Shown: positions 1,067-28,457 of the stretch, piece after piece
How the letters are laid out: each line of letters opens with the position of its first letter
Position numbering within the stretch: the first letter of the stretch is position 1
Source of the DNA: Pseudomonas laurentiana
Lineage (GTDB): Bacteria; Pseudomonadota; Gammaproteobacteria; Pseudomonadales; Pseudomonadaceae
Direction of reading: 5' to 3'
Length of the DNA: 64,000 nucleotides
NCBI RefSeq assembly: GCF_014648275.1
Contig: NZ_BMQU01000015.1
Span: 85,643 to 149,642 of the forward strand
Notes under the pieces: model-generated
The model's input: only the letters and a program-made list of their open reading frames with translations
Told to the model about the DNA's origin: nothing
Database searches by the model: none
Position numbers and translations under genes: made by a program

Positions 1067-1316
1067 GGCCGATGACGAGTCTGGCGGCTATAGAAGGTGC
1101 ATAGCATGCGCAGGGTGGCAGCGAGAGGCAAGCGATATCTGTATGGATGTACAGTTTTGTGTGTCTGCTGGTTTGCCAGGGGGCTGAGCAATCCGCGGGT
1201 GCGGTCTTGCCAGCTGCCTGACTCTCGCAGGGTGTGCGGGCCTTGCCCGCGATGCAGGCACCGCGAACTCATGGGCCCCCACCGATAGCAACCCTGCTAA
1301 CGGGACAAAACCCGGC

Positions 1317-11988: not shown

Positions 11989-12435
11989 ATGACCCTGCAA
12001 CTGATTCGTGCCACTGACCTGCATCTGCCGTTTGCTCGCGCGTTGACGTGCCGCAACATGCTGCCGTACTACCGAGAGTACGACCTGCTCTGGATGGACG
12101 AAGCGTTTGATCAGGCCTGGACCTGGCGTGAACAATGGCTGATCGTCGACGGTGAGCAGCTATTGGGCTTCTGCAGCCTGAGCCAGGACGCCCGGGCGTT
12201 GTTCATTCGCGAGCTGCAGGTGACGGAAAGCGCCCGGGGGCAGGGCGTCGGTTCCTGGGCATTGGAGCAGTTGGCCGCCTGGGCCGCAGCGCGGCGCCTG
12301 CCGTTGTTGCGCCTGACCGTGTTCAAGAGCAACCCGGCGCAGGGCTTGTACCGACGCCGGGGCTTTGAAGCGGTGGGGGAGGATGATTGCTTTGTACGCA
12401 TGCAGCGCGTTATTGCACGGCCGCCACCTGGTTGA
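11989..12435 (+). CDS. GNAT-family N-acetyltransferase
   Basis: Predicted 148 aa with the GNAT core. Motif A reads ELQVTESARGQGVGSWALEQL (acetyl-CoA binding R/Q-x-x-G-x-G/A pattern) and motif B NPAQGLYRRRGFEAVGED. Substrate is unknown. Its 3' end overlaps the convergent algG-like gene by 26 bp, so the end of the alginate-type operon abuts this gene directly. That leaves no room for an algA at that end. Confidence 0.82.
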   Translation: MTLQLIRATDLHLPFARALTCRNMLPYYREYDLLWMDEAFDQAWTWREQWLIVDGEQLLGFCSLSQDARALFIRELQVTESARGQGVGSWALEQLAAWAAARRLPLLRLTVFKSNPAQGLYRRRGFEAVGEDDCFVRMQRVIARPPPG

Positions 12436-13873
12436 CGCGGATCACCTGGTGCTGACGCAGGGTTGCGTCGAGCAGCAGGCTCTGGACGGGCAGCAGATCG
12501 CCGATCAATAGGTTCTGTAGCAGGGGGGTACCGTTGAAGCGGTTAGGCCCCAGATCCACCTGGTTCAAGCCTTCGACCCGCACCACCGCCTTGCCGACCT
12601 GGCCCAGGGTGTTGCCACTGAGGATCAACGGGCCGGGCAGGGCGCTGGCGTTGCGCAGGCTGATGGCATACTCCGGGGTGTTGCCGATACGGTTGTTGAT
12701 CAAGGTTGCCGCTGAGACGTCGCTGGCATCTATCGCACTGCCCTGGCTGCTGCCGATCAGGTTGTCGTCAATCAACAGGGGGGCCTCGGCAGTGGAGTGC
12801 ACGCTGCGCAGCAGGATACCGTTGCCCCGGCTGGCGCCAATGCGGTTGCGGCTCAGCATCAGCGCACCGTGTTGTTCACTGACCTCGATGGCCGCCTTGT
12901 TGGCGCCAAGGATCAGGTTGCCCTCGACCAGGGCCCGTGTGTTCCCGCGCAGGCGGATGGCGCTGTTGTTGTCGACGCCGCGAATCTGGTTCTGGCTGAC
13001 CAGCGCCTGGCTGTCGCGGATATCCAGGGCGTACTGCTGCGATTGCTCAAAGCGATTGCTGTCGAATTGGGCCAGCGTATGTTGCAGTTCTACCGCACTG
13101 AGTTCGTTGAACTGGCTGTTGCGGACCAGCAGCGTTGCCGGCCGGCTGTTGACGGGCTGCTGCACACTGAGCGCGGTACTCAGGCCGCGCGACAGGTTGG
13201 CGTTGTAGCCCAGGCGATTGAGGGTCGAGTTCAGGACCTGGGTGTGGCTGCCAGCCCAGGCCACCACGAACGGTCGCCAAGCACGGTCGGTGCTGCCGGG
13301 CTTGTCGCCCGCGACGCTTTCCAGGCGCGACTGGTTCAGGCCCAACCAACCCTGGTTGATCAGCGCCGTACCGGAATAGCTGTACAGGTACAGGCTGGTG
13401 CCTTCGAGCAGCAGACCGCCGTCGCTGGCGATCATCAGCGGGTAACTGAGCAGGTAGCCGTCCTTGTAGCGCTTGAGGATGCGCTCGTCCTTGAGGGCAT
13501 CATGCAGTTGCGCAAGGGTGACGCTGCCTCCGCGAATCAGTACCACCTGCGGGTGGTGCGCCTGATAGCCAGCAATGGCACGGAACAGGCCGTTATTGAC
13601 GAAGGGCTCGAACGGCCAACTGCCGCCCTGGGAGGAGAACATCGGTTGCAGGCTGACACTGCCCCGCCCGGCGGGACGGGGTCGCTCCGGGGGACTCATC
13701 TGCACGGCCTCGCGGGCCTGGGTTTGCAGCTGTTGCAGGTGTGCCTGATGCTCAACCGTGGCGACGGTGCTGAGCGACTGCTGCAACGGCAGGCTCTGGC
13801 TGGCGGCCTGAGCGCTGCTGGCCAGCAGCAGTGCCAGGCAAGGAAAGTAGAGGTGACGGGCAAACAAGGCCAT
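12410..13873 (-). CDS. AlgG-like parallel beta-helix protein without the DPHD epimerase motif
   Basis: Secreted protein of 487 aa (AlgG is about 540) with an N-terminal signal peptide ending near AQAAS. Residues 200-460 form right-handed beta-helix repeats of N/D-rich rungs. It lines up with AlgG around RPFVVAWAGSHTQVLNSTL and LGYNANLSRGLS. At the epimerase active site, where AlgG has YGIDPHDRS, this protein reads YALDIRDSQ (residues 281-289). The catalytic His is replaced by Arg286, and the later TRKKHG segment with the second catalytic basic residue is replaced by VDNNSA. It is therefore probably not a mannuronan C5-epimerase. It may keep AlgG's structural role in the periplasmic export complex. 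It is the last gene of the operon, whereas algG normally follows algE. Confidence 0.75.
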   Translation of the reverse strand: MALFARHLYFPCLALLLASSAQAASQSLPLQQSLSTVATVEHQAHLQQLQTQAREAVQMSPPERPRPAGRGSVSLQPMFSSQGGSWPFEPFVNNGLFRAIAGYQAHHPQVVLIRGGSVTLAQLHDALKDERILKRYKDGYLLSYPLMIASDGGLLLEGTSLYLYSYSGTALINQGWLGLNQSRLESVAGDKPGSTDRAWRPFVVAWAGSHTQVLNSTLNRLGYNANLSRGLSTALSVQQPVNSRPATLLVRNSQFNELSAVELQHTLAQFDSNRFEQSQQYALDIRDSQALVSQNQIRGVDNNSAIRLRGNTRALVEGNLILGANKAAIEVSEQHGALMLSRNRIGASRGNGILLRSVHSTAEAPLLIDDNLIGSSQGSAIDASDVSAATLINNRIGNTPEYAISLRNASALPGPLILSGNTLGQVGKAVVRVEGLNQVDLGPNRFNGTPLLQNLLIGDLLPVQSLLLDATLRQHQVIRVNQVAAVQ

Positions 13874-13890
13874 GGCGGTTCGTCCTTGGG

Positions 13891-15006
13891 TTACGGCAGT
13901 TTGGGGTAGAACGGCTTGAGCGGGCCGCCGAGCTGGCTGTAGTTGTCGACATCGCCGTCTTCGCTGTCATACAGCTGACGGGCCAGGCGGTTGTCCGGGG
14001 CGCGTTGCAGAAACGGGATCAACCACGCCAGCTTGTACGGCGCGACATCGGTCTGTGACTGGCCCTTGAGCTCCGGCAGGTTGTCGGGGTCAAGGATGCT
14101 GCGTGCGGCGAAGTTGGCCAGCAACTCCAGGGTGTGCTGGTCCTCACTGCTCCAGGGCAGGTGGTTGGCCCGCGCCGATTCGGCCAGCAGCACCAACGGC
14201 ACCAGGGCGTACTGGCTGTAGGTCGCGGCCAGTTTGCTGCGCGCTACTTCCAGCGGCAGGTAGGCATAGCTGCCATCGCTGCCACGCACGGCCTGCTGCA
14301 GGCCCCGGCGCAGGTTACCGTCGGCCCACTGGATGAAGTCGTCGCGCTGCACCAGCATGCCGGTCGCGGCAACCGCCCAGGCAGCCCAGTAGTCATGGTT
14401 GTTGAACCAGGTGAAACCCGGGGTCTGACGCGGCTGGTACTCACGAATGATCAGTTCGCCAAGGTGCTCGAACCAGGCTTTTTGCGTGGGCGTCAGTTGA
14501 ACCTGACCATTGCTCGCGGCCTGGGTCAGCAACAGGTTCGAGGCCATGGCCGCAACCGCCCATTTACGCGCGGCCATACCGGTGCTGCTGGCGTCGGGGT
14601 TGAGCAGGGCGCCCGCCTGGGCCCAGTGCTCCAGCCACTGGTCCTGACAGGCCAGGGCCATGTTCGCTTCTTGTGGCGTTTTGGCCCGCAGGAAGCGTTT
14701 GTTGGCGTAGATCAGCCCGCTGATAAAGGCTTTCACCTGCTTGCCGACCTTTTCCGTGCCAGCGTCCGGGTCACTGCGCAGGGTAGATTTGCTGGCGTCG
14801 CTCTGGTCGTACTTGCTCTGCAGTTGCAGATTGCCGGTGTAGGGCGGTGGCGGCGCTTTGCTACAGGCCAGGCTGCGGTAATCGGCAATCATCGCCGACT
14901 GTGCGCTGGCCCGTGCCGGCCAGATCGAGGTGGCGGCCAGGCTACTGCCCAGGTGCAACGCGGCGCACAGGCCAAGCCCGGCGACGCTCCAGCGTTTTAC
15001 AGGCAT
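13891..15006 (-). CDS. algL: Alginate lyase-like protein of the AlgL family (PL5)
   Basis: Periplasmic protein of 371 aa with a signal peptide (cleavage near SLAAT). AlgL degrades stray polymer in the periplasm by beta-elimination. Conserved features are SKYDQSD (the lysine of the canonical SKYEGSD), RKWAVAAMAS, and FNNHDYWAAW at residues 201-210 with the catalytic Asn-His pair. SQYALVPL carries the catalytic Tyr at residue 266. The active-site arginine that precedes that tyrosine by seven residues in AlgL appears to be Leu259 here, with Lys258 next to it. Activity or substrate may therefore differ, but the alignment is by eye. It overlaps the algX stop by 10 bp, which implies coupling. Confidence 0.86.
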   Translation of the reverse strand: MPVKRWSVAGLGLCAALHLGSSLAATSIWPARASAQSAMIADYRSLACSKAPPPPYTGNLQLQSKYDQSDASKSTLRSDPDAGTEKVGKQVKAFISGLIYANKRFLRAKTPQEANMALACQDQWLEHWAQAGALLNPDASSTGMAARKWAVAAMASNLLLTQAASNGQVQLTPTQKAWFEHLGELIIREYQPRQTPGFTWFNNHDYWAAWAVAATGMLVQRDDFIQWADGNLRRGLQQAVRGSDGSYAYLPLEVARSKLAATYSQYALVPLVLLAESARANHLPWSSEDQHTLELLANFAARSILDPDNLPELKGQSQTDVAPYKLAWLIPFLQRAPDNRLARQLYDSEDGDVDNYSQLGGPLKPFYPKLP

Positions 15007-16400
15007 AGTCGGGTTTCCACTTCAGTGGCAGCAGTGCCGGGTTTGGTGGGCTCAAGAAACACCGAAAGCAGGTTGGCGCCGGCGAATTCCTTGGCCTTGC
15101 TCAGTTCCAGGTAGTACTGCCCGCCAGTGACAGCCGCCTCGCGGCGGAACCAGACCTTGTCACGGGCGCCGTTGTCGTAATAGACAATGACGTAGAAGTC
15201 CTTGACGTTCTTGTCGCTGATCTTGATGTCGAGAAAACCCTGGCCACTGCTGAGGTTCTTGCGCGCCTCACCGGCATTGCTGAGCAGCTCGATGCGGTCG
15301 CTGACCTTCAAGGCCGGGTGCTGCACGTGGTTGCCGAGCACGGCTGTAGAGGTCGAGCAGCCGCCTTTGATCGCCGGAATCAGTTGCCGGTACATGAGCT
15401 CGGACTCCAATTGGTAGTTGGCGGGTAACTCCCAGATGATCAGCTTGGGTGGCGCCTTGGGCTTGTAGTTCTCCGAGAGCAGGTATTCCAGTAGTGAACC
15501 CTCCTGGCCGACGCCGGGAAGGGCGTAGTTGAGGATGTCCACTTCCAGGTACTGCTTGAGGTAGCCGTCGAAGTTGAACTGCTTGCTCTCGTCCTCACGC
15601 GCGGCCGCGTTACTGTCGCCGACCAGAATGACTTCCGGGTCTGGTGCTTCGTCGAACAGTGCATTGGCGTCGTCGGCCATGGGGATGGTCTGGTGGCCAC
15701 GCACGTACTGGAAGCCATAGTTGTTGCCGCAGATGTAGCTCATCGCCAGGTTCAGGGTGCCGTCCTTGGGCACCATGACGCCGGGTTCAGTGCGGTACTG
15801 CTTTTTGCTCAGCTCGTTATAGAACGGTTGCCGCCGCACCTCTTCTGCCAGCAAGCGGGCGGTCGCCTCGGCGCCACTGGGGGTCCAGTGGTGGTCACGA
15901 CGAAAGAAGTACTCGCCCTTGGGCGGGGTGCGCACCAGTTGCATTGTGTCGGGCACCACCGCGCCGGCATTACGCAGCTGTTGCAGGTAATTGCTCAGGT
16001 TGCCGCTGGCCCGGGTGAAATCGAAGCCGTGCAGTTGGTTGGCGTAGAGCTTGTCGCGGTGCATCAGCCCACGGGTGGGCTGGATCGCCATGGCGACATG
16101 GATGCCTTGTTGGCGAAACGCAGCCATCAGCCGGGCAAACTCTGGACGCATCGGCGCCGGGATACCGAAATCGTTGGTCAGGTCGACCATCGAACGGAAC
16201 AGCCAGCGATTCTTGCCCGGGACAATTTCACGCATCAGCTTCATGCGCCCTTCGGCGTACTTCTGCGGGTCGCTCAGGGCGGGGCAGGTCATGCACTCAA
16301 GGCTCTCGCAGGCACCACGCTTGCCGGGTACAGTCGCCGTGGCGGGCAGGCTGAAGCAGGCAAGGACGGCTACAAGGCCCAGGGGGAGTAAAGTCTTCAT
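14997..16400 (-). CDS. algX: AlgX-type alginate O-acetyltransferase
   Basis: Periplasmic SGNH-hydrolase-like enzyme of 467 aa that transfers acetyl groups to the polymer. It has a signal peptide (MKTLLPLGLVAVLACFSLP), then cysteines in RGACESLECMTCP as in AlgX. The catalytic DHHW motif is at Asp169/His171, and the nucleophile serine lies in VGDSNA (Ser263). A C-terminal carbohydrate-binding-like beta domain covers about residues 350-467. All catalytic elements look intact, so the polymer is probably acetylated. The gene precedes algL, as in the canonical operon, but here it follows algF rather than algG. Confidence 0.88.
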   Translation of the reverse strand: MKTLLPLGLVAVLACFSLPATATVPGKRGACESLECMTCPALSDPQKYAEGRMKLMREIVPGKNRWLFRSMVDLTNDFGIPAPMRPEFARLMAAFRQQGIHVAMAIQPTRGLMHRDKLYANQLHGFDFTRASGNLSNYLQQLRNAGAVVPDTMQLVRTPPKGEYFFRRDHHWTPSGAEATARLLAEEVRRQPFYNELSKKQYRTEPGVMVPKDGTLNLAMSYICGNNYGFQYVRGHQTIPMADDANALFDEAPDPEVILVGDSNAAAREDESKQFNFDGYLKQYLEVDILNYALPGVGQEGSLLEYLLSENYKPKAPPKLIIWELPANYQLESELMYRQLIPAIKGGCSTSTAVLGNHVQHPALKVSDRIELLSNAGEARKNLSSGQGFLDIKISDKNVKDFYVIVYYDNGARDKVWFRREAAVTGGQYYLELSKAKEFAGANLLSVFLEPTKPGTAATEVETRLCL

Positions 16401-16441
16401 GTGCGCGATTCATCATCCTGTTGAATAAGGGCCGTGGTCAT

Positions 16442-17095
16442 TCACTCGCTGGGGTCAATGCTGTTGGCCAGGCTCAGGCTGCGGTAGCCGTTGCCCTGAG
16501 GCAGCAGCACATAGCTGTAGGAGCGACCTTTCTTCAGGAACAGTTCCTCGAACCGGGCCACGTTCTGTTCCTCGACATAGGCGGCGAAGCCGATCTTGAT
16601 TTCGTTGACCATGCGGCTGCCGGTCTGGTCCTTGCCCAGCGGGTCGACGATCACGTGCTTGCCGTCCACGGTTTTCAACGCCGCCTTGGCTGGTGTCAGG
16701 TTGTAGAAGGCCACCTGGGCTTTCTTTGGTTCGTTGACGTACTTGTCGGCAATCAGGGTCAGGCTGTTGCCGTCATAGACCACGGTACTGGCTGCGTTCT
16801 TGATCAATTGCGGTTCGATCGACTTGCTACCGACCGCGATCTTGTGTGTGCCGGCAGGGGTGAAACGGTAGCCGCTCAGTTGTCCGGGGGCGACCTTTTG
16901 CGGGGTTACCTTGCCGCTCAGGGTCACGTCGATCGTGCTGTTGCTCAGGTTCAATACCCGAACAAAGGCCGAGTCGGCCGGGGCCACGGCGTCGTAAAGG
17001 TCGGCGTTGCCTTCGGCGGCGAGCACCACCGGCGTGTTCAGTACGCCAAAGGCCAGGGCGCTGGCGGCCAGGAACTGTTGCAAGGTGCGGGTCAT
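16442..17095 (-). CDS. algF: AlgF-type periplasmic alginate acetylation protein
   Basis: Predicted 217 aa, the usual AlgF length, with a signal peptide (MTRTLQQFLAASALAFGV... ending near VLAAEG). After it come DLYDAVAPADSAFVRVLNLS, beta-rich tandem domains and LLPQGNGYRSLSLANSID at the C-terminus. AlgF helps pass acetyl groups to the polymer with AlgI, AlgJ and AlgX. No catalytic motif is expected. It lies 12 bp after algJ. Confidence 0.88.
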   Translation of the reverse strand: MTRTLQQFLAASALAFGVLNTPVVLAAEGNADLYDAVAPADSAFVRVLNLSNSTIDVTLSGKVTPQKVAPGQLSGYRFTPAGTHKIAVGSKSIEPQLIKNAASTVVYDGNSLTLIADKYVNEPKKAQVAFYNLTPAKAALKTVDGKHVIVDPLGKDQTGSRMVNEIKIGFAAYVEEQNVARFEELFLKKGRSYSYVLLPQGNGYRSLSLANSIDPSE

Positions 17096-17107
17096 GGGGA
17101 TCTTCCT

Positions 17108-18202
17108 TTAAAAGTGTTGGGGCTGGGCTGGGCGGCTGAGTGAACCGATCCGATGGGCAAGCAGGGTGCGCAGCGGGAACTCCCAGACCACGGTGTCGAT
17201 CTGTGGGTTGGCCAGTTGGTCGCTTTGCAGGAATTGGGTCATGGCCTCGAAGGGTCCCCGGGCCTCGACGGCGACACTGAGCAGGTCACGGTTAAGCGCT
17301 TCCTTGAGGAAGCCGACGAAGTTCCAGTCATCGATCTTGCTGTAGCTGGTGCCGACCAACAGCAGGCTCTGGTGTTCCTCGGCGAACAGCTCATCGGCGC
17401 TCTGCCCGGCCTTGAGGGTCTCGTAGACGGCGATCGAATTGGCACCGAACTGTGGGGCCAGAGGGCTTTGCCCAAACTGGATGTAGTTCATCAAGTCGCC
17501 CTTGACGACTTTTTCCGCCACCTTGTTCGACACGTAGCGTTCGTCACCGAGCAACTCTGGCCGCTGGCGGGCCAGTTCATAGGCGGTCAGGCGGGCACCT
17601 TCCGGGCTCCAGTGGGTGTCGGACTTGAGGAACAGTTCATGCCCGTCCAGGTGCTGCAGGAAGGTCGAGCGCACCGGCGTGACAGTGATGTGTCGCGCCT
17701 GCAGCTGGCTGACGAAGCGGTCATACAGGCTGACTGCCCGAGGGTCGAAGGGGCGCTGGGTATGAGCCGCATAGATGTCCAGCTTCATCGGCAAGGGCAG
17801 CACGATCAGGCGCTTGTTGTGCTGTTTGAGTTGCTGCTCGACCGCGGCAATTTTTGCCAGTTGCCCCTCAAGGTTGGCGTCCAGGTCGTTGGGTACGCGG
17901 TACTCCTGGTTGGTGTAGAGCCAGCCATCCTTGCCCAGCACCACACCTTTGGTGCCTTCGCCAAACAGTTGGTATTGGGCGTTGGCCCACAGTGCTACAG
18001 AGGGTTCGCGCAGGAAGAAACGCTTGTCGTAGGCCTGCTCGAACTTGCGCAGCAACTTGCCATCGACGAACAGCGTCCAGGCGTCGCTCTGGTTTTTGGC
18101 AAAACTGAAAACGGGCGGCAGCGAGTAGATGAACATCCCCGCCAACACCAGGCAGAACAGAATGCCGTTGACCTTGCTTGCCGAGTTGAACACCGGGTAC
18201 AT
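17108..18202 (-). CDS. algJ: AlgJ-type alginate O-acetyltransferase
   Basis: Membrane-anchored periplasmic protein of 364 aa with a signal anchor at about residues 12-33. The SGNH-like catalytic elements are conserved: SDTHWSPEGARLTAYELA holds Asp195 and His197, and LVGTSYSKIDDWNF holds Ser286. It works with the MBOAT protein AlgI, encoded 9 bp upstream. It is about 25 residues shorter than the P. aeruginosa protein but not visibly truncated within the domain. Confidence 0.88.
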   Translation of the reverse strand: MYPVFNSASKVNGILFCLVLAGMFIYSLPPVFSFAKNQSDAWTLFVDGKLLRKFEQAYDKRFFLREPSVALWANAQYQLFGEGTKGVVLGKDGWLYTNQEYRVPNDLDANLEGQLAKIAAVEQQLKQHNKRLIVLPLPMKLDIYAAHTQRPFDPRAVSLYDRFVSQLQARHITVTPVRSTFLQHLDGHELFLKSDTHWSPEGARLTAYELARQRPELLGDERYVSNKVAEKVVKGDLMNYIQFGQSPLAPQFGANSIAVYETLKAGQSADELFAEEHQSLLLVGTSYSKIDDWNFVGFLKEALNRDLLSVAVEARGPFEAMTQFLQSDQLANPQIDTVVWEFPLRTLLAHRIGSLSRPAQPQHF

Positions 18203-18211
18203 GGCAGTCTC

Positions 18212-19639
18212 CTAGAACTGGAAGTACAGGAAGGGCGAGAAGGAGTGCGCAGCCAGGCTGCTCAGCGCCAGGCCGAAGCCGCACCACAGCAGCATGGCCT
18301 TGAGGCCGCCGACGTGGCGCATGAAGTAGTGCTCCTTGTTGCCGGCGTAATAGCGCACGTTGTTGGTCCCGGCCAGGATCAGCCAGCACAGCGCCACCGC
18401 GGCGAAGGACATGGCCATCTTCGAGGCGCCGAGTACGTACAACTCCAGTGAGCCGACGCCGTTGAAGCCGAACAGTGCCTGGTAGATGTCCAGGCTATGG
18501 CGCAGGTCGTTGGTGAAGAACAACGGCATGCTGAGGATGATCAACAGCGCAGTGCGCAGGTTGCGGCCCAGGTGGTAGGGCGTGGTGACTTTGGTCGCCA
18601 GGTCGAATGTGCGTTCGATCACCATGCCGAAGCCGAAGAACAACCCCCAGCAGATGAACGCGAAGCTGGCGCCGTGCCACAAGCCCGACAGCAGCATGGT
18701 GTAGACCAATGCGGGCAGGGCGCCGGCAATGCGTTTGCGTACCAGCGGCATGTACACGTAGTCGCGCAGGAAGTGCGCCAGGGTCATGTGCCAGCGGGCC
18801 CAGAACTCGGTGATGCTCTGCGAGACGTAGGGTTGGTTGAAGTTCTCCGGGAAACGGAAGCCCATCATCAAGGCCAGGCCCAGGGCCATATGGCTGTAGC
18901 CGGCGAAGTCGAAGTACAACTGCAGGGTAGAGACCACCAGGCCAAACCAGGCATCGCTCAACTGCAGGGTGCCCTCACTGACAAACAGCACGTTGATTGG
19001 CGCCAGTTGGTCGGCAATCAGCACCTTCATGATGAAGCCGAGCATGAACCGGCATACGCCCAGGGAGAACAGCTCCAGCGAATGGGTGCGCTGGCGCAGC
19101 TGCGGGGCCAACTGGCTGTAGCGCAGGATCGGCCCGGCCACCAAGTGAGGGAACAGGGCGACGAAAGCCGCGAAGTCGATGAAGTTGTTGGTCGGCGTGG
19201 CGTCCTTGCGGTAGATATCGACGATGTAGCTCAGGGCATGGAACACATAGAAGGAGATGCCCAGCGGCAGGAAAATCGTCTCCAGGGTAAAGGTATTGAT
19301 GCCCAGTGGCGCCAGCAGCGCGGCCAGTACTTCGGCGCCGAAGTTGGCGTACTTGAAGTAGCCCAGGGTCGACAGGTTGCCGATGATGCCGATCCACAAC
19401 AGCCGAAATGCCCAGCGTTTGTCGCCGGCATCCAGGCGAGCCTTGATGCGCAGGCCGAACCCGTAGTTCCAGTAGGTGATGGCAACGAACAGCAGCAAAA
19501 AGTCCGGACGCCACCAGGCGTAGAAGATGTAGCTGGCGGCCACGATCACCGTTGAACGCCACTGCGGCCGGGCAAGGAAGTAGACGGCCAGGAACAGCGG
19601 CAGGTAGAGGAACAGAAAGACGTTGGAGGCGAAGATCAT
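18212..19639 (-). CDS. algI: AlgI-type MBOAT acyltransferase
   Basis: Polytopic inner-membrane O-acyltransferase of 475 aa (canonical AlgI is about 520). It starts MIFASNVFLFLYLPLFLAVY, with about ten hydrophobic segments. The MBOAT active-site histidine lies in SGLWHGASFAFICWG, and WARWHMTLAHFLRDY is the other family hallmark. It moves acetyl groups across the membrane for AlgJ and AlgX. Here it directly follows algE with a 14-bp gap, a position held by algG in the canonical operon. It could be confused with MBOAT genes of other acetylated polymers, but the company of AlgJ and AlgF settles it. Confidence 0.88.
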   Translation of the reverse strand: MIFASNVFLFLYLPLFLAVYFLARPQWRSTVIVAASYIFYAWWRPDFLLLFVAITYWNYGFGLRIKARLDAGDKRWAFRLLWIGIIGNLSTLGYFKYANFGAEVLAALLAPLGINTFTLETIFLPLGISFYVFHALSYIVDIYRKDATPTNNFIDFAAFVALFPHLVAGPILRYSQLAPQLRQRTHSLELFSLGVCRFMLGFIMKVLIADQLAPINVLFVSEGTLQLSDAWFGLVVSTLQLYFDFAGYSHMALGLALMMGFRFPENFNQPYVSQSITEFWARWHMTLAHFLRDYVYMPLVRKRIAGALPALVYTMLLSGLWHGASFAFICWGLFFGFGMVIERTFDLATKVTTPYHLGRNLRTALLIILSMPLFFTNDLRHSLDIYQALFGFNGVGSLELYVLGASKMAMSFAAVALCWLILAGTNNVRYYAGNKEHYFMRHVGGLKAMLLWCGFGLALSSLAAHSFSPFLYFQF

Positions 19640-19653
19640 CTCGGGGCCCGTCC

Positions 19654-21111
19654 TTAGTAGCTGATCACGACGCCGAGCGTCAGCTGGTAGTCATCGCCGG
19701 TGTCCAGCGCGTTACCTGCATTCAGGTAGCTGGCGCTGACCAGGGTGTTGACGTCCAGGTGTTTGCCGTCGATGGCCACCGGAAACATCTTCCAGTAGTA
19801 GTTGAGGTCGAGCATTTGCCCGACGGTCTTGCCACCGGTAGGGGTGCCTTGGTTGATCGCCTGGTTGCGCGCACTGCGCTGGTCGCCGTCGATGCGAATC
19901 GGCAGGGTACCTTCGGCGTCGCGCAGCTTGAGCTCGGTAAGTCGCAGGTCCAGAGCGCTGCGTGGGGTTGGCTGGGTTTCCAGAGCGAAGCCGTAGTAAC
20001 TGAGGTTGCGCAGGTCCAGGCTGACAAAGGAACTGGTCAGGCGGGTGCTGTAGGAGCCCTGGCGGGTGATGCGGTCAGACTGGATGGTGTTCAGGCGAAA
20101 GCCATCGTTATCATCACTGGGCTTGTCGGTCAGGCCACCGCGCAATGCCACGCGGGGGGTCCAGGGCAGGTCGTGAAAGCGCTTGCCGATCTCGCCCAGC
20201 GCGGCCCAGCCGCGGGTACTGTGGCCGGTGCTGGTGATGCCCTTGCCGTCGGTGTTGTCGATCTCGCCGTCGAGCCCGGCCAGTTCCACGTGGTAGTCGC
20301 TGAACAGTGGGCTGACCTGCAAGTCATCGGCCTTGAAGAACAACCCGTAGCGCATGCCCGTGAAGTCGTAGCGGTCTTCGGGGTCGTGGCCGCTGTGGTC
20401 GTCTTCATGCATCAGGCGTACGCCCGCCCAGTTATGCTCGCTCCAGCGGTAGGCATACTCACCCATCAAGTAGGTGGTGCGCTCTTCGCTGTCGGCCAGG
20501 GTGTTGACGTCACTGTTGTAGTTGTAGAACTTCTGCGCGACGGCGAGAAAGCCATGGGCGAAGGTGTCGTTGTAGTTGAAACGCAGCGACTCAAGGCTGT
20601 CATCCCACCAGATCCCGTAGTCGTCAAAGTAGCGCTGGCGGCCTGCTGACAGTGAAAAGCGCGGGTCGTCGCCCAGCAGGTTGCGTTTGACGTACAGTTC
20701 GCGCATTTCGGCGTACCAGCCTTCAGGCTGCTCACGGTCGACGCTGTTGGCGTTCTCGTTTTGCACGCTGATCGATTGGCTGGAGTCATAGTCCAGCCAC
20801 AGGCGGCCGTAGACCTGCCACTTGGCCCAGCGTTTTTCCGGCGAGTACCAGACGAACGAGGGCTCATAGCGCAGGCTGTAGAACATTTCGCGACTACGAC
20901 CGACCTGGGAGTTTTCCGGGCCGTAGCCGGTTTGCAGCGTAAGCTTGTTGAAAAACTCCGAGGTAATCACCGGCTCGCTGCCATCGTTGGCGGCAACCCG
21001 CACCGGCTCGTTGCTGTCGGCTTCCGGGCCGGTGATTTCTTCGGCAGCCAAGGCCGTGTAAACAGGGGTCAGGGCGAGCAGGGCGCCGAACAGGGAATGG
21101 TGCGCTTTCAC
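19654..21111 (-). CDS. algE: AlgE-type outer-membrane alginate porin
   Basis: Outer-membrane beta-barrel of 485 aa (AlgE is about 490) that exports the polymer. Signal peptide MKAHHSLFGALLALTPVYTALA. Then come alternating-residue strands with frequent aromatic girdles such as LRYEPSFVWYSPEKRWAKWQVYG, and LNYYWKMFP near the end. The C-terminus YQLTLGVVISY ends on an aromatic residue, as outer-membrane barrels usually do. The start overlaps the algK stop by four bases. Confidence 0.9.
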   Translation of the reverse strand: MKAHHSLFGALLALTPVYTALAAEEITGPEADSNEPVRVAANDGSEPVITSEFFNKLTLQTGYGPENSQVGRSREMFYSLRYEPSFVWYSPEKRWAKWQVYGRLWLDYDSSQSISVQNENANSVDREQPEGWYAEMRELYVKRNLLGDDPRFSLSAGRQRYFDDYGIWWDDSLESLRFNYNDTFAHGFLAVAQKFYNYNSDVNTLADSEERTTYLMGEYAYRWSEHNWAGVRLMHEDDHSGHDPEDRYDFTGMRYGLFFKADDLQVSPLFSDYHVELAGLDGEIDNTDGKGITSTGHSTRGWAALGEIGKRFHDLPWTPRVALRGGLTDKPSDDNDGFRLNTIQSDRITRQGSYSTRLTSSFVSLDLRNLSYYGFALETQPTPRSALDLRLTELKLRDAEGTLPIRIDGDQRSARNQAINQGTPTGGKTVGQMLDLNYYWKMFPVAIDGKHLDVNTLVSASYLNAGNALDTGDDYQLTLGVVISY

Positions 21112-22553
21112 AGGGTAGCCTCCTTCAACAGATCGTTACGGGCCACCAGGGCGCGTTCGATGTCATCCTTTTTCAGGGTTTTTTCCAGACGTTTGAGCAG
21201 GCTGCGCGCACCGTTCTCGCCCAGGTCCAGGGCGACCCGTGCATAGGTGTAGGCCTTGACCGGGTCATGACAGATGGCCCGGCCATAGGCGTGCAGGGTC
21301 GCCATGCGGTACCAGGCCGCGGTGGAGCCGGCTTGTGCCTGTTGCTGGAAAATCGCCAGGGCTTTTTGCTGGTCGGGTTCATCCTCGACACCCTTGCTGT
21401 AGTACTCGCCAAGCAGCAGTTGGGCATCGGGGTAGTGGCTGGCGATCAACTCGTCGATCAGTGCTCGGGCTTTGTCCGGGTCGAGGGTGAGCCAGTTGTT
21501 GACCATGTAGAACGAGGCTTGCAGTGCCTTGGCCCGGGTTGGCTCCTGGGTCTTTACCTGATCGATCAGGCTTTGGGTTTCCTCGGCATTGTGCTCGGTC
21601 GGGTTCGAGATCATGTAGTTGGCCTTGGACACCATCGCCGGGACAAAGCCGCGCTCCACTGCGTTGTCACGCCAGCGATGTGCCTCGGCGGTGGCAACAT
21701 CGAGGGCCTCGGCCTCGGCCTTCTCCCGCGCCAGTTGCTGTGGGCTCGGTTGCGCTTTGTCCGGGCCCATGCCGTTGGCCTGGCGCTCGTAGCGGTCAGC
21801 GTCCTGTTCGGCACGGCGGACACTGGTAATGCTGTCGAGCAACGAGCCGATACGGTGAACGATGTCCACCGGCAGCTTGGGGCGCTCGCTTTCCAGGGTT
21901 CGGGCGAACGCCGGAAAGGCCGTGTCCTGATCGTCCCCAAGGAAGCGGTAATAGCGGTCGATGGCCCGCAGGTCGACCCGCACCGCCTGTTGATAGCCTC
22001 GCTCGGCAGCAACGCGGTCGCCCTGGCGCTCGGCCAGAACGGCGCGGTACAACTCGGGGCGGCAGTTAAGCAGGCACGATTGCTCATACAGGCCAAGCAC
22101 CTGCGCCGCCTCACGAGGTGGCACCAGTTCCGGGTACACCAGGAACACTTCCAGGGTCGTGCTGGCGTTACGCGGATCGAGGTTACTCGGGTAACGCGTG
22201 AGCGCCTGTTCGACCCAGGCGCGCTGGCCCTGACGCAGGCCGGGGCTACGGTCGAGCAGGCGCGCCAGTGAGGCCAGCGCCGGGACCAGCCCGCGACCGT
22301 CGGCAAAGGCCTCGTGGTACAGGCGAATCACTTCCTGGCGGCTGGCACCGTCACTGCTCGACAGCAGGTCGCCCAGCAGCAGCTTGGACGCCAGGTCACC
22401 ACGCTCGGCCAGCACCCGCAGATCGGCCGTAACCTCGGCGCTGGGGTCTTTGTACAGCGCATAGCGGATTTGCTCCAGGCTCTGTCCGGCCAGTGCAGGG
22501 GCAGTGCAGGCCAGGGCTCCGAACAGCAACCAGGTGGGCGTCATCGGTTTCAT
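21108..22553 (-). CDS. algK: AlgK-type TPR/Sel1-repeat scaffold protein
   Basis: Predicted 481 aa. It has a signal sequence with a possible lipidation cysteine at residue 16 (FGALAC; the -3 position is not a classical Leu). Sel1/TPR-like helical repeats follow throughout (for example LASKLLLGDLLSSSDG, AQLLLGEYYSKGVEDE, AAWYRMATLHAYGRAI). AlgK helps place AlgE and bridges the periplasm. The stop overlaps the algE start (ATGA-type overlap), so the two are coupled. Confidence 0.88.
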   Translation of the reverse strand: MKPMTPTWLLFGALACTAPALAGQSLEQIRYALYKDPSAEVTADLRVLAERGDLASKLLLGDLLSSSDGASRQEVIRLYHEAFADGRGLVPALASLARLLDRSPGLRQGQRAWVEQALTRYPSNLDPRNASTTLEVFLVYPELVPPREAAQVLGLYEQSCLLNCRPELYRAVLAERQGDRVAAERGYQQAVRVDLRAIDRYYRFLGDDQDTAFPAFARTLESERPKLPVDIVHRIGSLLDSITSVRRAEQDADRYERQANGMGPDKAQPSPQQLAREKAEAEALDVATAEAHRWRDNAVERGFVPAMVSKANYMISNPTEHNAEETQSLIDQVKTQEPTRAKALQASFYMVNNWLTLDPDKARALIDELIASHYPDAQLLLGEYYSKGVEDEPDQQKALAIFQQQAQAGSTAAWYRMATLHAYGRAICHDPVKAYTYARVALDLGENGARSLLKRLEKTLKKDDIERALVARNDLLKEATL

Positions 22554-22563
22554 CGCTCGACCC

Positions 22564-23712
22564 TTAGCGCGACAGCGACGGCAGACCGAGGAACAGGTCT
22601 ACTGCCACCGGTTTCAGATAGGCCTGGGCTGGCAAGCGCGTGTCCGTACGGATCGTCAGGGCCAGGTTCTTGTTCAGTTCATCCACCCGCGAGTCCACCA
22701 CCGTGCCGGTGAAGCGTTCGTCGAGGCCGAATACCTGCAGGTCGACCGAGGTCACCCGGGTAATGTCGGTGAGCTTGTCGAACGGCACGTTGGCGGTGAC
22801 GAACAGGTCTTCGTTTTTGGGCAACAGGTGCATCAGTGGAGCCTGCTTGTAGCCGAAGCCATCAAGCGGCTTGCTTGGGAAGTACACCTGGCAGTCGCAC
22901 GGGCTGTTGATCACGGTTTCGATGGTGGCGCGCCCGAGCAGGGTTTGCAGGTCGCCGGGCGACAGGTCGGCGACTGCCTTCATGTCGGCCGGGCTGGTAA
23001 AGCTGGTGGCCAGTTGCGTGGAGATACTGGCTACCGGCTCGCCGGCCTTGACCTCGGTTTGCCCCGGTTGCAGCAGGAACTTCACATAGCCGTTGTCGGG
23101 CATGCTGATGACTTGGGCATTGGCCGACACCTGGGCTTGCACGGCCGGGATGCGGAACAACAGCAGGTAGCTTTTGTACGCGACGAAACTCAGTGCGGCG
23201 ATCCCTGCCACGGTATACAGCAGGGTGCCGGTCATGGCTTTGAGACGGTCGCCAGCCGTACGCGCACTGGCATACGTGTGCTTGCGTTCCTTGATGTAGT
23301 TTTCGCGCTGCATCACATTGAACAGGCCATTGATGTCAGCGATCTCGCCGGACATGTAGGCGGTGATGATGTAGCGCAGGATGTCGCGCTTCTGTGTATC
23401 GAGGTCAACGAACTGTGCGCCGACCTCCTGGCCGCGCTGGGAAACGATCTTGACCTTGCTGTCGATGTTCAGGTCGATCTGATTCAGGCGCAGTTTGATC
23501 GAGGCGGTGTACAGGCTGCCGATTTTCAGCGGATCGGCATGAACCAGGCCTATGCCACCCAGGGAAATGTCCTGCAGCGTGCTCTCGAATGCGGGTTGTC
23601 CCGTCGCGCTGAGCAGGACCCGGGCATTGAGTTTGGTGCGCACGTACTGACGTTCGTCAATCGCTTCATGGACCACATTGGCCGGTACTGTTGGGGTGCT
23701 GGAGTTACTCAT
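22564..23712 (-). CDS. alg44: Alg44-type c-di-GMP-binding PilZ/membrane-fusion polymerase subunit
   Basis: Predicted 382 aa. The N-terminal PilZ domain keeps both c-di-GMP motifs: RQYVR (Arg21 and Arg25) and DISLGG (Asp48, Ser50, Gly53). One membrane helix follows (AGIAALSFVAYKSYLLL), then a periplasmic membrane-fusion-type domain (VSANAQVISMPDNGYVKFLL and onward). It activates the Alg8 synthase when c-di-GMP binds. The intact motifs suggest that the operon is still under c-di-GMP control. It lies 15 bp after alg8. Confidence 0.9.
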   Translation of the reverse strand: MSNSSTPTVPANVVHEAIDERQYVRTKLNARVLLSATGQPAFESTLQDISLGGIGLVHADPLKIGSLYTASIKLRLNQIDLNIDSKVKIVSQRGQEVGAQFVDLDTQKRDILRYIITAYMSGEIADINGLFNVMQRENYIKERKHTYASARTAGDRLKAMTGTLLYTVAGIAALSFVAYKSYLLLFRIPAVQAQVSANAQVISMPDNGYVKFLLQPGQTEVKAGEPVASISTQLATSFTSPADMKAVADLSPGDLQTLLGRATIETVINSPCDCQVYFPSKPLDGFGYKQAPLMHLLPKNEDLFVTANVPFDKLTDITRVTSVDLQVFGLDERFTGTVVDSRVDELNKNLALTIRTDTRLPAQAYLKPVAVDLFLGLPSLSR

Positions 23713-23727
23713 GACAGGCGCCTTTCC

Positions 23728-25260
23728 TTAACGTTGCGTGAGTTCGAGAAGAACCGAGATGACCCCGAAGAAGATCGCGATGGAAGAAAACAGCATCGCC
23801 TTGGAGGACCAGCGGTTCAGGGCCGCATCGAAGTTGACGCGGCCGTTGCTCAATGTGGTTTTCTGTCGGGTCCAGCGTTGTTGGTCCATGTGGAACATTG
23901 CGTAAACCTTCATCACCGAGCCGACGATCTGGTTGTAATAGAGAACGAAGGGGTACACCGGGCTGACCGGGTGCCCGGCGAACAGGAACATCACCGTGAC
24001 CAGGGTGCGCGACAGCAGTACCCAGAACAGGTACACCAGCAGGTACTGAATGCCGAACACCAGGCCGGCCACCACCGATGCGGTCAGGCCCATCAGGCAC
24101 GTCCACATCGATACCCGCTGATCCAGCAGCACATACAGGGTGAACAGCCCCAGCCGCGCACGACCCAGCAGGTGGGTTGCGCGAAAATTCTGCCGTAGCG
24201 AGTTGCCGTACCAGCGGAACATCAGTTGCCGGGTTGCGCGCCAGAAGCTGTTATCTGGCGGATGCTCCACGGTCAGGGTGTTGCTGTCGGGCACGTAGAA
24301 GGTGTCCCAGCCAGCGCGCATCAGGCTCAACCAGGATGACTTGTCGTCACCGGTGAGGAACTGGAAGCGGCCCAGGCGCCAATGTTCGAGGAAGTCGGCC
24401 TCGACATCCCTGATGAACTCGGGGTCGGTCATCACGCTGGCGCGGAAGAACGACAGCCGCCCGGTGAGGGTCAGCACCCGATGCGACAGGGCCATCGAGC
24501 ACATATTGATGTGCCGTTGAACAAAGCGCATCGAGTGCCATTCGCGCATCAGGCGGCTGCCCTCGACCTCGCAGAACTCGTTGGTGGTCAGGCCACCGAC
24601 ATTGGGCAGGTAGGCAAACAGCTTGACCGCGCGTTCGACACAGCCAGGCAGCATCATGGTGTCGCCATCGACCACGCCGACCACCGAGTCTTCCATGGGC
24701 ATCTGCCGCGACAGTGCGCGAAAGGCATGCGCCAGGCCATCACGTTTACCGGTGCCCCGGGCGCGGACGATTACCAGCTTGATGTCGTCGCGGTCCTTGA
24801 CCTCGTTGCGCATGATGTCCTTGATAAAGTGCTCGTCGCCTTTCTCGACGATCGAGGCAATCACCGTGCACGGGACCTTGAGCCGTTGCACTTCCTGAAA
24901 CACCGACTGGTAGACCTTGAAGGTGGTGTGGGTCGGAATGCGGAAGCTGGTGACCACCATGAACAGGTGGGCGGGCAGTGCCGCATCGCCCATGCGCTCG
25001 ACGGCCTTGCGAATGCGTGGAAACTTCCAATGCAGGAAGTACATGCCGCGCAGGTAGTGGACAATGGCGTTGCCATAGCGCCACAGGCCCAGCGTACCGA
25101 TGACGAAAATGAACAGGTGGTGGTCAGGGTCGAGGTACTGCGGCGCGATCATTTCCGAGGCCAGCGCGATGAGGCCGAACAGGCAGGCCCAGGCACAGAA
25201 ACGTGCGCTGGCCCTGAGCGTGTTCGATTGACCTGCAGGCTGGCCTGAGTGTCGTTCCAT
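23728..25260 (-). CDS. alg8: Alg8-type polymannuronate synthase (GT2)
   Basis: Inner-membrane glycosyltransferase family 2 polymerase of 510 aa from MERHSGQPAG. Start 25260 has AAGGAG upstream; a GTG at 25290 is less likely. N-terminal membrane helices precede the catalytic domain. That domain contains the acidic motif VVDGDTMMLPGC, the TGDDKSSWL acceptor motif and the RQLMFRWYGN segment equivalent to QxxRW. C-terminal helices follow. It polymerises GDP-mannuronate made by AlgD and partners with Alg44. The sequence is clearly Alg8 rather than cellulose or hyaluronan synthase. Confidence 0.9.
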   Translation of the reverse strand: MERHSGQPAGQSNTLRASARFCAWACLFGLIALASEMIAPQYLDPDHHLFIFVIGTLGLWRYGNAIVHYLRGMYFLHWKFPRIRKAVERMGDAALPAHLFMVVTSFRIPTHTTFKVYQSVFQEVQRLKVPCTVIASIVEKGDEHFIKDIMRNEVKDRDDIKLVIVRARGTGKRDGLAHAFRALSRQMPMEDSVVGVVDGDTMMLPGCVERAVKLFAYLPNVGGLTTNEFCEVEGSRLMREWHSMRFVQRHINMCSMALSHRVLTLTGRLSFFRASVMTDPEFIRDVEADFLEHWRLGRFQFLTGDDKSSWLSLMRAGWDTFYVPDSNTLTVEHPPDNSFWRATRQLMFRWYGNSLRQNFRATHLLGRARLGLFTLYVLLDQRVSMWTCLMGLTASVVAGLVFGIQYLLVYLFWVLLSRTLVTVMFLFAGHPVSPVYPFVLYYNQIVGSVMKVYAMFHMDQQRWTRQKTTLSNGRVNFDAALNRWSSKAMLFSSIAIFFGVISVLLELTQR

Positions 25261-25398
25261 GTTGCCGTTTCTCCTTGTTGATGGCGGCACCCGTCATTGA
25301 CGCGGCTGCACGTCGCCGGCCCGCAGGGCGGGCAGACGCTGGCAGGTCATGTCAATGGATGATCGGGGCCGCGTGCTCTCTTGGTGGAGCGTTCAGGC

Positions 25399-26706
25399 TT
25401 ACCAGCAGATTCCTTCGCGGGAGGCATCGCTGGTATGCGGCATGAAGCCCACCAGGTCGACGATCTGCTTGTTGTCGTCTCTTTCCAGTGCCTGGGCGAA
25501 ACGACTGTCGTTGTTGCCGAGAACGATCACGTCCGAGTGGTCGATCACCTGCTGCAAGTCGTTGCAGAGCAGTGAGGAGACGTGCGGGATTTTTCCTTCG
25601 ATGTAATCGCGGTTGGCCCCGAACACCCGTGCGTACTCGACATTGGCATCGTAGATGCGCAGGTCATAACCTTTGCCGATCAGCATCTCGGCCAGTTCCA
25701 CCAATGGGCTTTCACGCAGGTCATCGCTACCGGCCTTGAAACTCAAACCGAGCAGTCCGATACGACGCTTGTCGAACCCGGTCACCAGGTCGAATGCGTT
25801 TTGTACCTGGCTACGGTTGCTGGCCATGATCGAGGCCAGCAGTGGGTGTTCGACGTCCAGCTGGCCGGCGCGGTAGGTGAGGGCGCGCACATCCTTGGGC
25901 AGGCACGAGCCGCCAAAGGCAAAACCAGGGCGCAGGTAGTAGCGTGACAGGTTGAGTTTGTGGTCCTGGCAGACCACATCCATCACTTCACGACCATCCA
26001 CGCCCGAGGCTTTGGCGATGTTGCCGATCTCGTTGGCAAAGCTGACCTTGGTCGCATGCCAGACGTTGCAGGTGTACTTGATCATCTCTGCGACTTCGAT
26101 CGACTTGCGAATCACCGGTGCGTCCAGACCCTCGTACAGCGACTGCAACAGATCACCGGACTGGCTGTCGAGCTCACCGATGACGGTCATTGCCGGGAAG
26201 TCGTAGTCTTTGATGGCCGTACTTTCGCGGAGGAACTCCGGGTTCACTGCGACGCCGAAGTCGACACCGGCACGTTTGCCGGATGTGGCTTCGAGCAGCG
26301 GGATGACCACAGTGTTCACCGTGCCGGGCAGCACGGTGCTGCGCACCACGACGGTATGCCGGGAAGGCTTGTCACGCAGCGCTTCACCGATCTGGCGGCA
26401 CACCGCCTCCATGTAGACCAGGTCCAGGTCGCCGTTTTTCTTGCTTGGTGTGCCAACGCAGAGCAGCGAAAGATCGGTGTCCAGCACAGCGCCTTGAACA
26501 TCCGTCGTGCCATGCAGAAGCCCTTTGCGTAGCCCCTCCTGCAGCAACGCCTCCAGGTCGGGCTCAACAATAGGTGATTTGCCCTGGTTGATCATCTCGA
26601 TCTTGGCCTGGGAAATATCGACGCCGATCACCTGATGTCCGCGGGCCGAAAGGCAACCGGCGCAGACAGCTCCAACATAACCCAATCCAAAAATACTGAT
26701 TCGCAT
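25399..26706 (-). CDS. algD: GDP-mannose 6-dehydrogenase
   Basis: Predicted 435 aa, matching the 436-aa family length. It oxidises GDP-mannose to GDP-mannuronate, the committed step. The N-terminal Rossmann motif GLGYVGAVCAGCL, the catalytic cysteine in FAFGGSCLPKDVRAL and the C-terminal domain are all intact. It is the first gene of the eleven-gene operon. It is preceded by a 667-bp AT-rich intergenic region, similar in kind to the long algD leader of other Pseudomonas. GDP-mannose must come from an AlgA/PMI enzyme encoded elsewhere, since no algA is present. Confidence 0.93.
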   Translation of the reverse strand: MRISIFGLGYVGAVCAGCLSARGHQVIGVDISQAKIEMINQGKSPIVEPDLEALLQEGLRKGLLHGTTDVQGAVLDTDLSLLCVGTPSKKNGDLDLVYMEAVCRQIGEALRDKPSRHTVVVRSTVLPGTVNTVVIPLLEATSGKRAGVDFGVAVNPEFLRESTAIKDYDFPAMTVIGELDSQSGDLLQSLYEGLDAPVIRKSIEVAEMIKYTCNVWHATKVSFANEIGNIAKASGVDGREVMDVVCQDHKLNLSRYYLRPGFAFGGSCLPKDVRALTYRAGQLDVEHPLLASIMASNRSQVQNAFDLVTGFDKRRIGLLGLSFKAGSDDLRESPLVELAEMLIGKGYDLRIYDANVEYARVFGANRDYIEGKIPHVSSLLCNDLQQVIDHSDVIVLGNNDSRFAQALERDDNKQIVDLVGFMPHTSDASREGICW

Positions 26707-27373
26707 AGTTCCCTCTTCCCCGGTTCATCAGATGACCCAGGATAGTTAGTTAGACGTGTTTATAGGGCGGCAGGCGCACGCTGACAGCCAGCGCAACGTT
26801 GTACAGCGCAGGTGGTTTTTCTGTTTTTTTTACATCCTATAGGACGACTTTTAATCGTTGCAAGACGTTGATACTTGATAAGTTGCTAAACGTTGAAATT
26901 AACGTGGTTAAGTTTAAAAAACTGTTATAAAACAATGACTTAAAGTTTGATGTAAGTTAGGCGTCAAAAAACCGAATGCTTATTTGTGGTGATTTTTCTG
27001 GCGCCAAAATACAGCCATTGTGCGTTTTTAGCCTTGATTTCCCGGATCTTGTTCATTTTTTTGGCGCAGGTGTACACGCTGTGCCGGTCGCCGAAGTTTG
27101 GGTGTTTTAGTGTGTGATGGAAAAATGCCAGCAATGCATGGCTATAACTTTCAATGGCCTGCAGTGTGGTCGTGATATTGAACTTTTATAGGGCGGACAA
27201 TAACGTTAAGCCGGTTGTGCCTATCGGCGGATATGGCCTGTCTTGCGTGACGCTGCCGAAGGTTGGCTTGTATTGCGTGCAGCATCGCGTGCATAGTTTG
27301 GGTGCTGTTTCGTTACCTACTGTTGTTTTCAGGGAACACCCTTGGGGTGTCGTGTAAGGGATTGTGTATTCAG
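26707..27373. promoter_or_regulatory. Long AT-rich divergent regulatory region between algD and the XRE gene
   Basis: No convincing gene is present in these 667 bp, which are much richer in A and T than the flanks. Visible elements are a perfect 10-bp palindrome TCCTATAGGA at 26835-26844 and three copies of ACGTTG at 26796, 26865 and 26890. An imperfect dyad TTTGA...TCAAA spans about 26945-26967. I looked for a GAACTT-N16/17-TCTGA (AlgU-type) promoter facing algD and did not find a convincing one. A GAACTT at 27179 is on the wrong strand and has no matching -10. The region must hold promoters for both directions. Confidence 0.6.
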
Positions 27374-27739
27374 ATGACTGGAATCGGTTCGCGTATCAGG
27401 GAAGAAAGAGAACGGCTCAGGCTGACTCAGCGGGCTTTTGGCGACATCGGTGGCGTCGAGCCCAACGCACAGGGCAAGTACGAGAGTGGCGAGCGCACCC
27501 CCAAGCTGGATTACCTGGCTGCAGTGGCGGGGCGGGGAGTCGATGCCTTGTATGTGCTCAGCGGGGTGCATACCCCGGTGGCGGCCACCGGCTTGTCGCC
27601 GGCTGAAGGCCAGTTGCTCGACTGCTATCGTGCATTGCCGCAGGCTGATCAGGAGGCTGTGGCGCAGTTGCTGCACAGCTTGTCCAGGGGCATGCAGCGA
27701 CCTGTGGTGGGTGTAAGGAAATTGACGTCGGTATCATGA
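27374..27739 (+). CDS. XRE/Cro-C1 family transcriptional regulator
   Basis: Predicted 121 aa from MTGIGSRIREERERLRLTQ. A helix-turn-helix at about residues 5-60 includes LTQRAFGDIGGVEPNAQGKYESGERTPKLDYL. A short C-terminal extension has no peptidase motif, so it is not a LexA/C1-like self-cleaving repressor. The in-frame upstream start at 27263 is rejected because it adds a cysteine-rich non-family stretch. It faces algD across a long intergenic region but also precedes gacA. I recall an XRE gene near gacA in P. putida relatives, so a link to the alginate-type operon is possible but unproven. Confidence 0.83.
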   Translation: MTGIGSRIREERERLRLTQRAFGDIGGVEPNAQGKYESGERTPKLDYLAAVAGRGVDALYVLSGVHTPVAATGLSPAEGQLLDCYRALPQADQEAVAQLLHSLSRGMQRPVVGVRKLTSVS

Positions 27740-27818: not shown

Positions 27819-28457
27819 TTGATTAGGGTCCTGGTGGTCGATGATCACGATCTGGTGCGTACAGGCATTACCCGGATGCTGGCTGATATCGACGGTCTGC
27901 AGGTGGTCGGCGAGGCGGATTCGGGCGAGGCTTCATTGAAGGTCGCGCGTGAACTCAAGCCGGATGTCGTCTTGATGGACGTCAAGATGCCGGGGATCGG
28001 CGGCCTGGAAGCCACTCGCAAGTTGCTGCGCAGCCATCCGGATGTGAAGGTGGTGGCCGTTACGGTCTGTGAAGAAGACCCGTTCCCGACGCGCCTGCTT
28101 CAGGCGGGCGCTGCTGGCTACCTGACCAAGGGCGCCGGGCTGGATGAAATGGTGCAGGCCATACGCATGGTGTTTGCCGGGCAGCGTTATATCAGCCCGC
28201 AGATCGCCCAGCAGCTTGCGCTCAAGCCTTTCCAGCCACAGGGCTCGCCTTTTGACGCCTTGTCGGAACGTGAGATCCAGATTGCGCTGATGATCGTTGG
28301 TTGCCAGAAGGTGCAGATCATTTCCGACAAGCTGTGCTTGTCGCCGAAAACCGTGAACACGTACCGTTACCGTATCTTTGAAAAGCTTTCGGTCACCAGC
28401 GATGTGGAACTCACCTTGCTGGCGGTCCGTCACGGCATGGTCGACGCCAACCTCTGA
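27819..28457 (+). CDS. gacA: Global response regulator GacA
   Basis: NarL/FixJ-type response regulator of 212 aa with a TTG start. The receiver domain has the phosphorylated Asp54 in [10 protein letters not shown] and [16 protein letters not shown]. The LuxR-type HTH at the C-terminus reads [39 protein letters not shown]-like. The sequence is nearly that of known Pseudomonas GacA. It switches on the Rsm small RNAs and so affects exoproducts, including alginate in several species. It is followed after 2 bp by uvrC, the conserved arrangement. Confidence 0.95.

Follow-up and report, generated by a model that had tools for sequence, protein, structure and literature searches.

The closest described relative of the operon treated here is the epm cluster for an alginate-like exopolysaccharide (EPS) in Pseudomonas alkylphenolia, which reportedly consists of eleven open reading frames (ORFs) on the same strand, is said to specify a substituted polymannuronic acid and is likewise said to have homologues in Alcanivorax and Marinobacter. 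The window, by which we mean the whole analysed stretch of 64,000 nucleotides from Pseudomonas laurentiana (contig NZ_BMQU01000015.1, positions 85,643 to 149,642), resembles it in having eleven same-strand homologues of alginate genes. This operon (12410-26706, minus strand) is very likely of the published epm kind, because the same locus occurs in two genomes named P. alkylphenolica (L061 and L063), flanked by gacA and a GNAT gene and with an AlgE that is 87% identical; the 63 loci from named genomes, described below, include none named KL28. The description of the epm cluster is due to Lee 2014 (doi 10.1007/s00253-014-5529-6), as cited in PMC5890197. The title of that paper and that of Lim 2014 speak of an alginate-like polymer and of poly-beta-D-mannuronates from P. 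alkylphenolia.

Two clades of Pseudomonas alginate operons, set apart by a rearrangement of algIJF, have been described by Bundalovic-Torma et al. 2020 (PMC7112194). The window operon is like the second clade in its rearranged acetylation genes and, judged from text passages of that paper, this clade is probably the epm-type lineage; a lost AlgG motif or AlgK lipobox does not come up in these passages. Pap, which is also an acidic EPS in Pseudomonas, was rejected as the identity of the system. According to the relevant parts of PMC7716237 it is Wzy-like, with 16 genes and no protein that binds cyclic diguanylate (c-di-GMP), and the gene families of the window differ from those of papA-P. A search of the literature for a second alginate operon turned up nothing. 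The kind of system is already known, and the window comes from a species in which an epm-type operon seems to stand alone. The data added here concern the sole operon in a genome, the AlgG motif, the AlgK lipobox, the AlgU box and the occurrence of algA as second gene.

We consider it likely that the operon makes an acetylated polymannuronate and that its AlgG-like protein is non-catalytic, a prediction of activities and product from the observed gene content, gene order and residues. All eleven protein families also occur in the canonical alginate operon, with which the catalytic residues are shared except for those of AlgG. The order in the direction of transcription, algD-8-44-K-E-I-J-F-X-L-G, differs from the canonical algD-8-44-K-E-G-X-L-I-J-F-A, and algA, the DPHD motif of AlgG, the lipobox of AlgK and an AlgU box before algD are all missing. 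The eleven frames are open and closely spaced, with seven gaps of 9-41 bp, overlaps of 4 bp (K/E) and 10 bp (X/L) and a gap of 108 bp between algD and alg8, nine of the ten junctions lying within -10 to 41 bp. A sequence-only reading of this DNA had listed eleven tightly spaced Alg genes on one strand in this order, and both the ORFs and the family matches bear it out.

More specifically, the operon starts with epmD, encoding an AlgD-like GDP-mannose 6-dehydrogenase (25399-26706, 435 amino acids (aa); full-length match to P. aeruginosa 1mfz, 768 bits). It is followed by genes for an Alg8-like polymannuronate synthase of family GT2 (23728-25290, 520 aa, GTG start; Glyco_tranf_2_3), for which a search of the PDB gave no match, an Alg44-like PilZ co-polymerase (22564-23712, 382 aa; PilZ and the Alg44 PilZ structures 4xrn/4rt0), an AlgK-like periplasmic TPR/Sel1 scaffold (21108-22553, 481 aa; structure 3e4b and the AlgK model, at 61.5 bits far under the cut-off of 700) and an AlgE-like outer-membrane export barrel (19654-21111, 485 aa, GTG start; Alginate_exp and AlgE structures). 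Four acetylation genes come next, encoding an AlgI-like MBOAT acetyl transfer protein (18212-19639, 475 aa; MBOAT), an AlgJ-like SGNH protein (17108-18202, 364 aa; ALGX family, 230 bits), an AlgF-like accessory protein (16442-17095, 217 aa; AlgF family, 120 bits) and an AlgX-like acetyltransferase with a C-terminal CBM (14997-16400, 467 aa; ALGX and CBM_26, 250 bits to 4knc). The operon ends with an AlgL-like PL5 lyase (13891-15006, 371 aa; above the NF001469 cut-off, and 4ozv) and an AlgG-like beta-helix protein (12410-13873, 487 aa; Beta_helix), whose weak match to the AlgG structure covers the N-terminal part. The GC content of the operon genes (0.59-0.65; GC3 0.74-0.89) is near that of four flanking genes (0.59-0.63 and 0.75-0.81), and the operon therefore does not look freshly acquired.

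The functional residues were compared between the window, 19 other epm-type loci (17 for AlgD) and 15 canonical-type loci (L044-L058), which include three loci of a variant with algL last. Invariant throughout are Cys268 of AlgD, within GGSCLPKDVR, D208, D210, D315 and D316 of Alg8, R21, R25, D48, S50, G52 and G53 of Alg44, H322 of AlgI and D169, H171 and S263 of AlgX, all of which we take to have the functional roles usually given to them. The same holds for D195, H197 and S286 of AlgJ and for K65, H204, W207, R256, Y263 and Y266 of AlgL, which by motif and spacing match residues named in passages of PMC4148444 and PMC8829089, respectively.

The AlgG-like protein is the exception. The motif DPHD is present in 15 of 15 canonical-type AlgG proteins versus none of 20 epm-type ones. 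A wider set, which overlaps the first, was drawn from a scan of named genomes that gave 63 loci, titled Pseudomonas save for one Pantoea and three metagenome-assembled genomes of Gammaproteobacteria. Here DPHD is absent from all 66 epm-type proteins (60 of the 63 scan loci, the three truncated ones being dropped, and six from outside the family) and present in both further canonical-type ones. The window protein reads DIRD, with R in the histidine column, a column that holds R, Q or N in 32/32 of the loci L059-L090. For the numbering of AlgG we assume positions 317, 319 and 345. The algG-like gene is nevertheless retained in every non-truncated named locus, and its retention without DPHD suggests that the product is a non-catalytic structural part. 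Passages of the review PMC4444821, from which Tyr314 is also taken, state that the histidine of DPHD probably abstracts the proton and that in alginate producers loss of AlgG leads to unsaturated oligomers instead of polymer.

Two further absences were followed across the lineage. A strict AlgK lipobox occurs in 0/63 epm-type loci, in 12/17 canonical-type loci, the other five of which have a near-lipobox Gly-Cys variant, and in two of six epm-type loci from outside the Pseudomonadaceae. In the literature that was searched, to which Lee 2014 and Lim 2014 do not belong, the loss of the AlgG motif or of the AlgK lipobox in the epm lineage is not mentioned; it may have been published. The AlgU box was scanned for in a strict and a relaxed form, with a consensus that we presume to be correct, within 700 bp upstream of algD. 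No box was found in that range before the window algD, whose upstream region (26707-27373, minus strand) stands out as an AT-rich dip in composition. The strict box is found in 10/17 canonical-type loci versus 1/58 epm-type regions (57 of the 63 named loci and the window), and the relaxed form adds four canonical-type loci (two of L044-L058, plus L143 and L144) and four epm-type regions. Pieces about 130-270 bp upstream of algD are conserved among the relatives on the P. putida side. In the AT-rich part at 26800-27000 a possible -35/-10 pair lies about 130-160 bp before algD.

The sequence-only reading had taken the operon for a second system of the strain. The check it named, a search of the genome for a canonical algD-algA operon, was run on the window genome (G000; 5.2 Mb, 223 contigs, 99.99% complete) and found none, so that this part of the reading falls. 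The ALGX family matched only the AlgX and AlgJ of the window, with counts of four each in G104, G015 and G148, five in G060 and two each in G001 and G118 as controls; the P. defluvii genome of L059, the AlgE of which is 96% identical to that of the window, also has two ALGX matches only. The canonical AlgG model recovered the AlgG-like gene and one negligible match (E 0.14). In G104 the canonical operon is flanked by yaaA on one side and by a small gene and an SDR gene on the other. On contig C14 of G000 these three flanking genes sit together with a polysaccharide-deacetylase-family gene, yaaA being 88 bp away from the small gene, and the canonical alg proteins match nothing in the fetched 6 kb of C14 better than E 0.026. 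Since the flanking genes are contiguous, the canonical operon is cleanly absent from its usual site and not hidden in an assembly gap. The searches of G000 thus revealed no further alginate-type operon, and the epm-type one seems to be the only one there. The absence of algA from the cluster was read correctly, and the sole GMP-PMI match of the genome sits on a separate contig (C4); because it is unlinked, the proposed borrowing of GDP-mannose is likely.

The distribution of the system was determined with the AlgE-like protein as query against 299 genomes of the genus. An epm-type AlgE (E <1e-140 and at least 53% identity) is present in 34 of them, G000 included; the weaker, canonical-type matches, among those listed, mostly reach 27-37% identity along short segments. 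A further AlgE match was found in 31 of the 34 carriers, the three with a single one being G000, G001 and G118. The second locus was fetched for ten of the 31 and has the canonical order in nine, as does the comparison locus L144; the tenth (G148, locus L051) is a variant with algL behind algF. This third arrangement, D-8-44-K-E-G-X-I-J-F-L-A, was also seen in L053 (G194) and L056 (G013). In all three loci AlgG has DPHD and algD is without strict or relaxed AlgU box, and G194 holds a canonical-type cluster (L052) as well.

The epm-type gene block is shared by 20 fetched carriers, where L031 ends at a contig end and L027 and L035 have no algD in the stretch. The sequence-only reading had also named a comparison of synteny across Pseudomonas, and in the named genomes the block 8-44-K-E-I-J-F-X-L-G is unbroken in 60/63 loci, the other three meeting contig ends. 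Such conservation is far beyond chance. The algD gene lies in front in 58/63, behind the block in L104 and outside the fetched stretch in L098, L117, L119 and L120, which are also without algA there. Named from its sequence, algA is the second gene in 26/63 loci, lies downstream in L104 and does not occur within the stretch in the remaining 36. In G118 there is no linked algD, and an unlinked AlgD, 74% identical, is present. Together with algA in the sister clusters this unlinked AlgD supports GDP-mannuronate as the probable substrate. A search of 390 genomes of the order matched 22, and six strong matches from outside the family (E <=8e-50) were fetched as L136-L141. The order is unchanged in three of them, of which one has algA as the second gene and two have an extra lyase gene alongside, and in the other three algG is on the opposite strand, followed by algA. 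The extra gene, in L137 and L138, resembles a second PL5 lyase and adjoins the epm-type cluster.

The history of the lineage was addressed with FastTree trees of Alg8, AlgI, AlgX and AlgL (38 sequences each) and AlgD (36 sequences). The first four part the epm-type proteins, including the six from outside, from the canonical-type ones with supports of 0.978-0.998, which lends support to the earlier idea of an EPS lineage distinct from canonical alginate; the Alg8 tree was one of the checks that had been proposed. The wording 'derived from alginate' was too strong, as the trees give two groups, with the six clusters from outside the genus on the epm side. A rearrangement of canonical alginate into epm was accordingly dropped as a scenario and replaced by two separate lineages. 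The grouping of these six clusters suggests that the split is older than the genus, unless transfer has occurred. AlgD does not separate the two types and was therefore left out of the lineage evidence. At 72-77% identity to the 15 canonical-type AlgD proteins, the window AlgD suggests replacement or gene conversion; Alg8 is 50-54% identical to its 15 counterparts, and AlgG, AlgK and AlgE are the least alike (19-25%).

Around the operon, the GNAT gene (11989-12435, plus strand) is convergent and outside the system; its 3' end and that of algG overlap by 26 bp, tail to tail. On the other side lie a small helix-turn-helix gene (27374-27739, plus strand; HTH_3), divergent from algD, and gacA (27819-28457), beyond which uvrC (28460-30283) follows. 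The GNAT overlap and the neighbouring gacA had both been recognised in the sequence-only reading. A flank with gacA and/or the GNAT gene, typical of the P. putida side, was found in 31/63 named loci, none of which has algA. The HTH_3 gene is present in 36 of the 40 loci searched for it (L036-L043 and L059-L090). The contig of L086 is titled Pantoea sp. Cy-639 and carries the cluster with gacA and GNAT flanks of the P. putida type; the label is probably wrong.

In the biosynthetic route that we propose, AlgD would make GDP-mannuronate out of GDP-mannose supplied by the unlinked GMP-PMI. The Alg8/Alg44-like pair would polymerise it across the inner membrane upon binding of c-di-GMP to the PilZ domain, after which AlgI, AlgJ, AlgF and AlgX would O-acetylate the chain in the periplasm. 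Export would proceed through the AlgK- and AlgE-like proteins, while the AlgL-like lyase would clear leaked chains. The AlgG-like beta-helix would guide or protect the chain and no longer epimerise it, and the product would be an acetylated polymannuronate, free or nearly free of guluronate, that serves as a biofilm scaffold.

Several observations weigh against a non-catalytic AlgG. The gene epmG is said to be needed, together with epmJ, and to act as a polymer-modifying gene. The Beta_helix match is kept, the Tyr314 and Asp317 columns are conserved in 59/60 and 60/60 of the AlgG homologues in the Pseudomonas scan, and the Arg345 column, uncertain because of nearby gaps, holds Arg in 44/60 (32/32 of L059-L090 and 12/28 others). 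The histidine itself persists in three of the 60 (DLHD in two, DLHG in one), which led us to reject the statement that it has gone from all epm AlgG proteins. Given this histidine and the kept Tyr and Asp columns, the protein may be an altered, still active epimerase. Moreover, it is 19-21% identical to canonical-type AlgG with gaps beside the motif, so the alignment may be a few columns off. A PF13229 search of G000 gave two proteins, neither with DPHD by eye, a result that does not extend to secreted AlgE-type epimerases outside the reach of PF13229. One protein of that genome (L160; contig C12, near 115439-116044, ORF 682-2373, minus strand) has 563 aa and combines a beta-helix with RTX-like glycine/aspartate repeats; it shows no DPHD by eye, and its layout somewhat resembles that of secreted AlgE-type epimerases. 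That the operon yields ordinary alginate, with the AlgG-like protein epimerising via a rearranged active site, is unlikely all the same, as the residue proposed to abstract the proton is missing in 57/60 homologues and in the window, and AlgG belongs to the three proteins that are least like their canonical relatives.

The divergence of the export barrel, AlgK and AlgG could also point to a different uronan, with another linkage or sugar and alginate-like machinery that has been reused, and Alg8 is indeed unlike the canonical type at many fixed positions. We regard this as quite improbable in view of the high identity of AlgD (72-77%), the algA gene in sister clusters and the poly-beta-D-mannuronates in the title of Lim 2014; in addition, the PL5 lyase keeps residues shown, in passages of PMC8829089, to be important for polymannuronate cleavage. 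The missing DPHD and lipobox might finally mark a decaying remnant of alginate synthesis, yet eleven open, tightly packed frames, absences that are common across the Pseudomonas lineage and otherwise invariant catalytic residues make this barely credible. An acetylated polymannuronate made with a structural AlgG accommodates these observations best.

According to passages of the 2015 review PMC4444821 every alginate-producing bacterium has a gene for the AlgG epimerase and no natural producer of mannuronan had been identified, a gap that, going by the title of Lim 2014, has perhaps been partly closed for P. alkylphenolia. We give even chances to the broader proposition that a lineage in and beyond Pseudomonas is built for natural acetylated mannuronan, its epimerase having turned into a non-catalytic structural part. 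If so, mannuronan would be made naturally by the species of the window, P. defluvii and two more, none of which yielded another alginate-type system. The epm lineage allows mannuronan producers to be predicted from sequence and offers strains without a competing alginate operon. It also constitutes a natural experiment on the roles of AlgG beyond epimerisation and on the need of AlgK for a lipid anchor. The main interest is that the loss of the epimerase motif throughout the lineage makes natural mannuronan directly testable.

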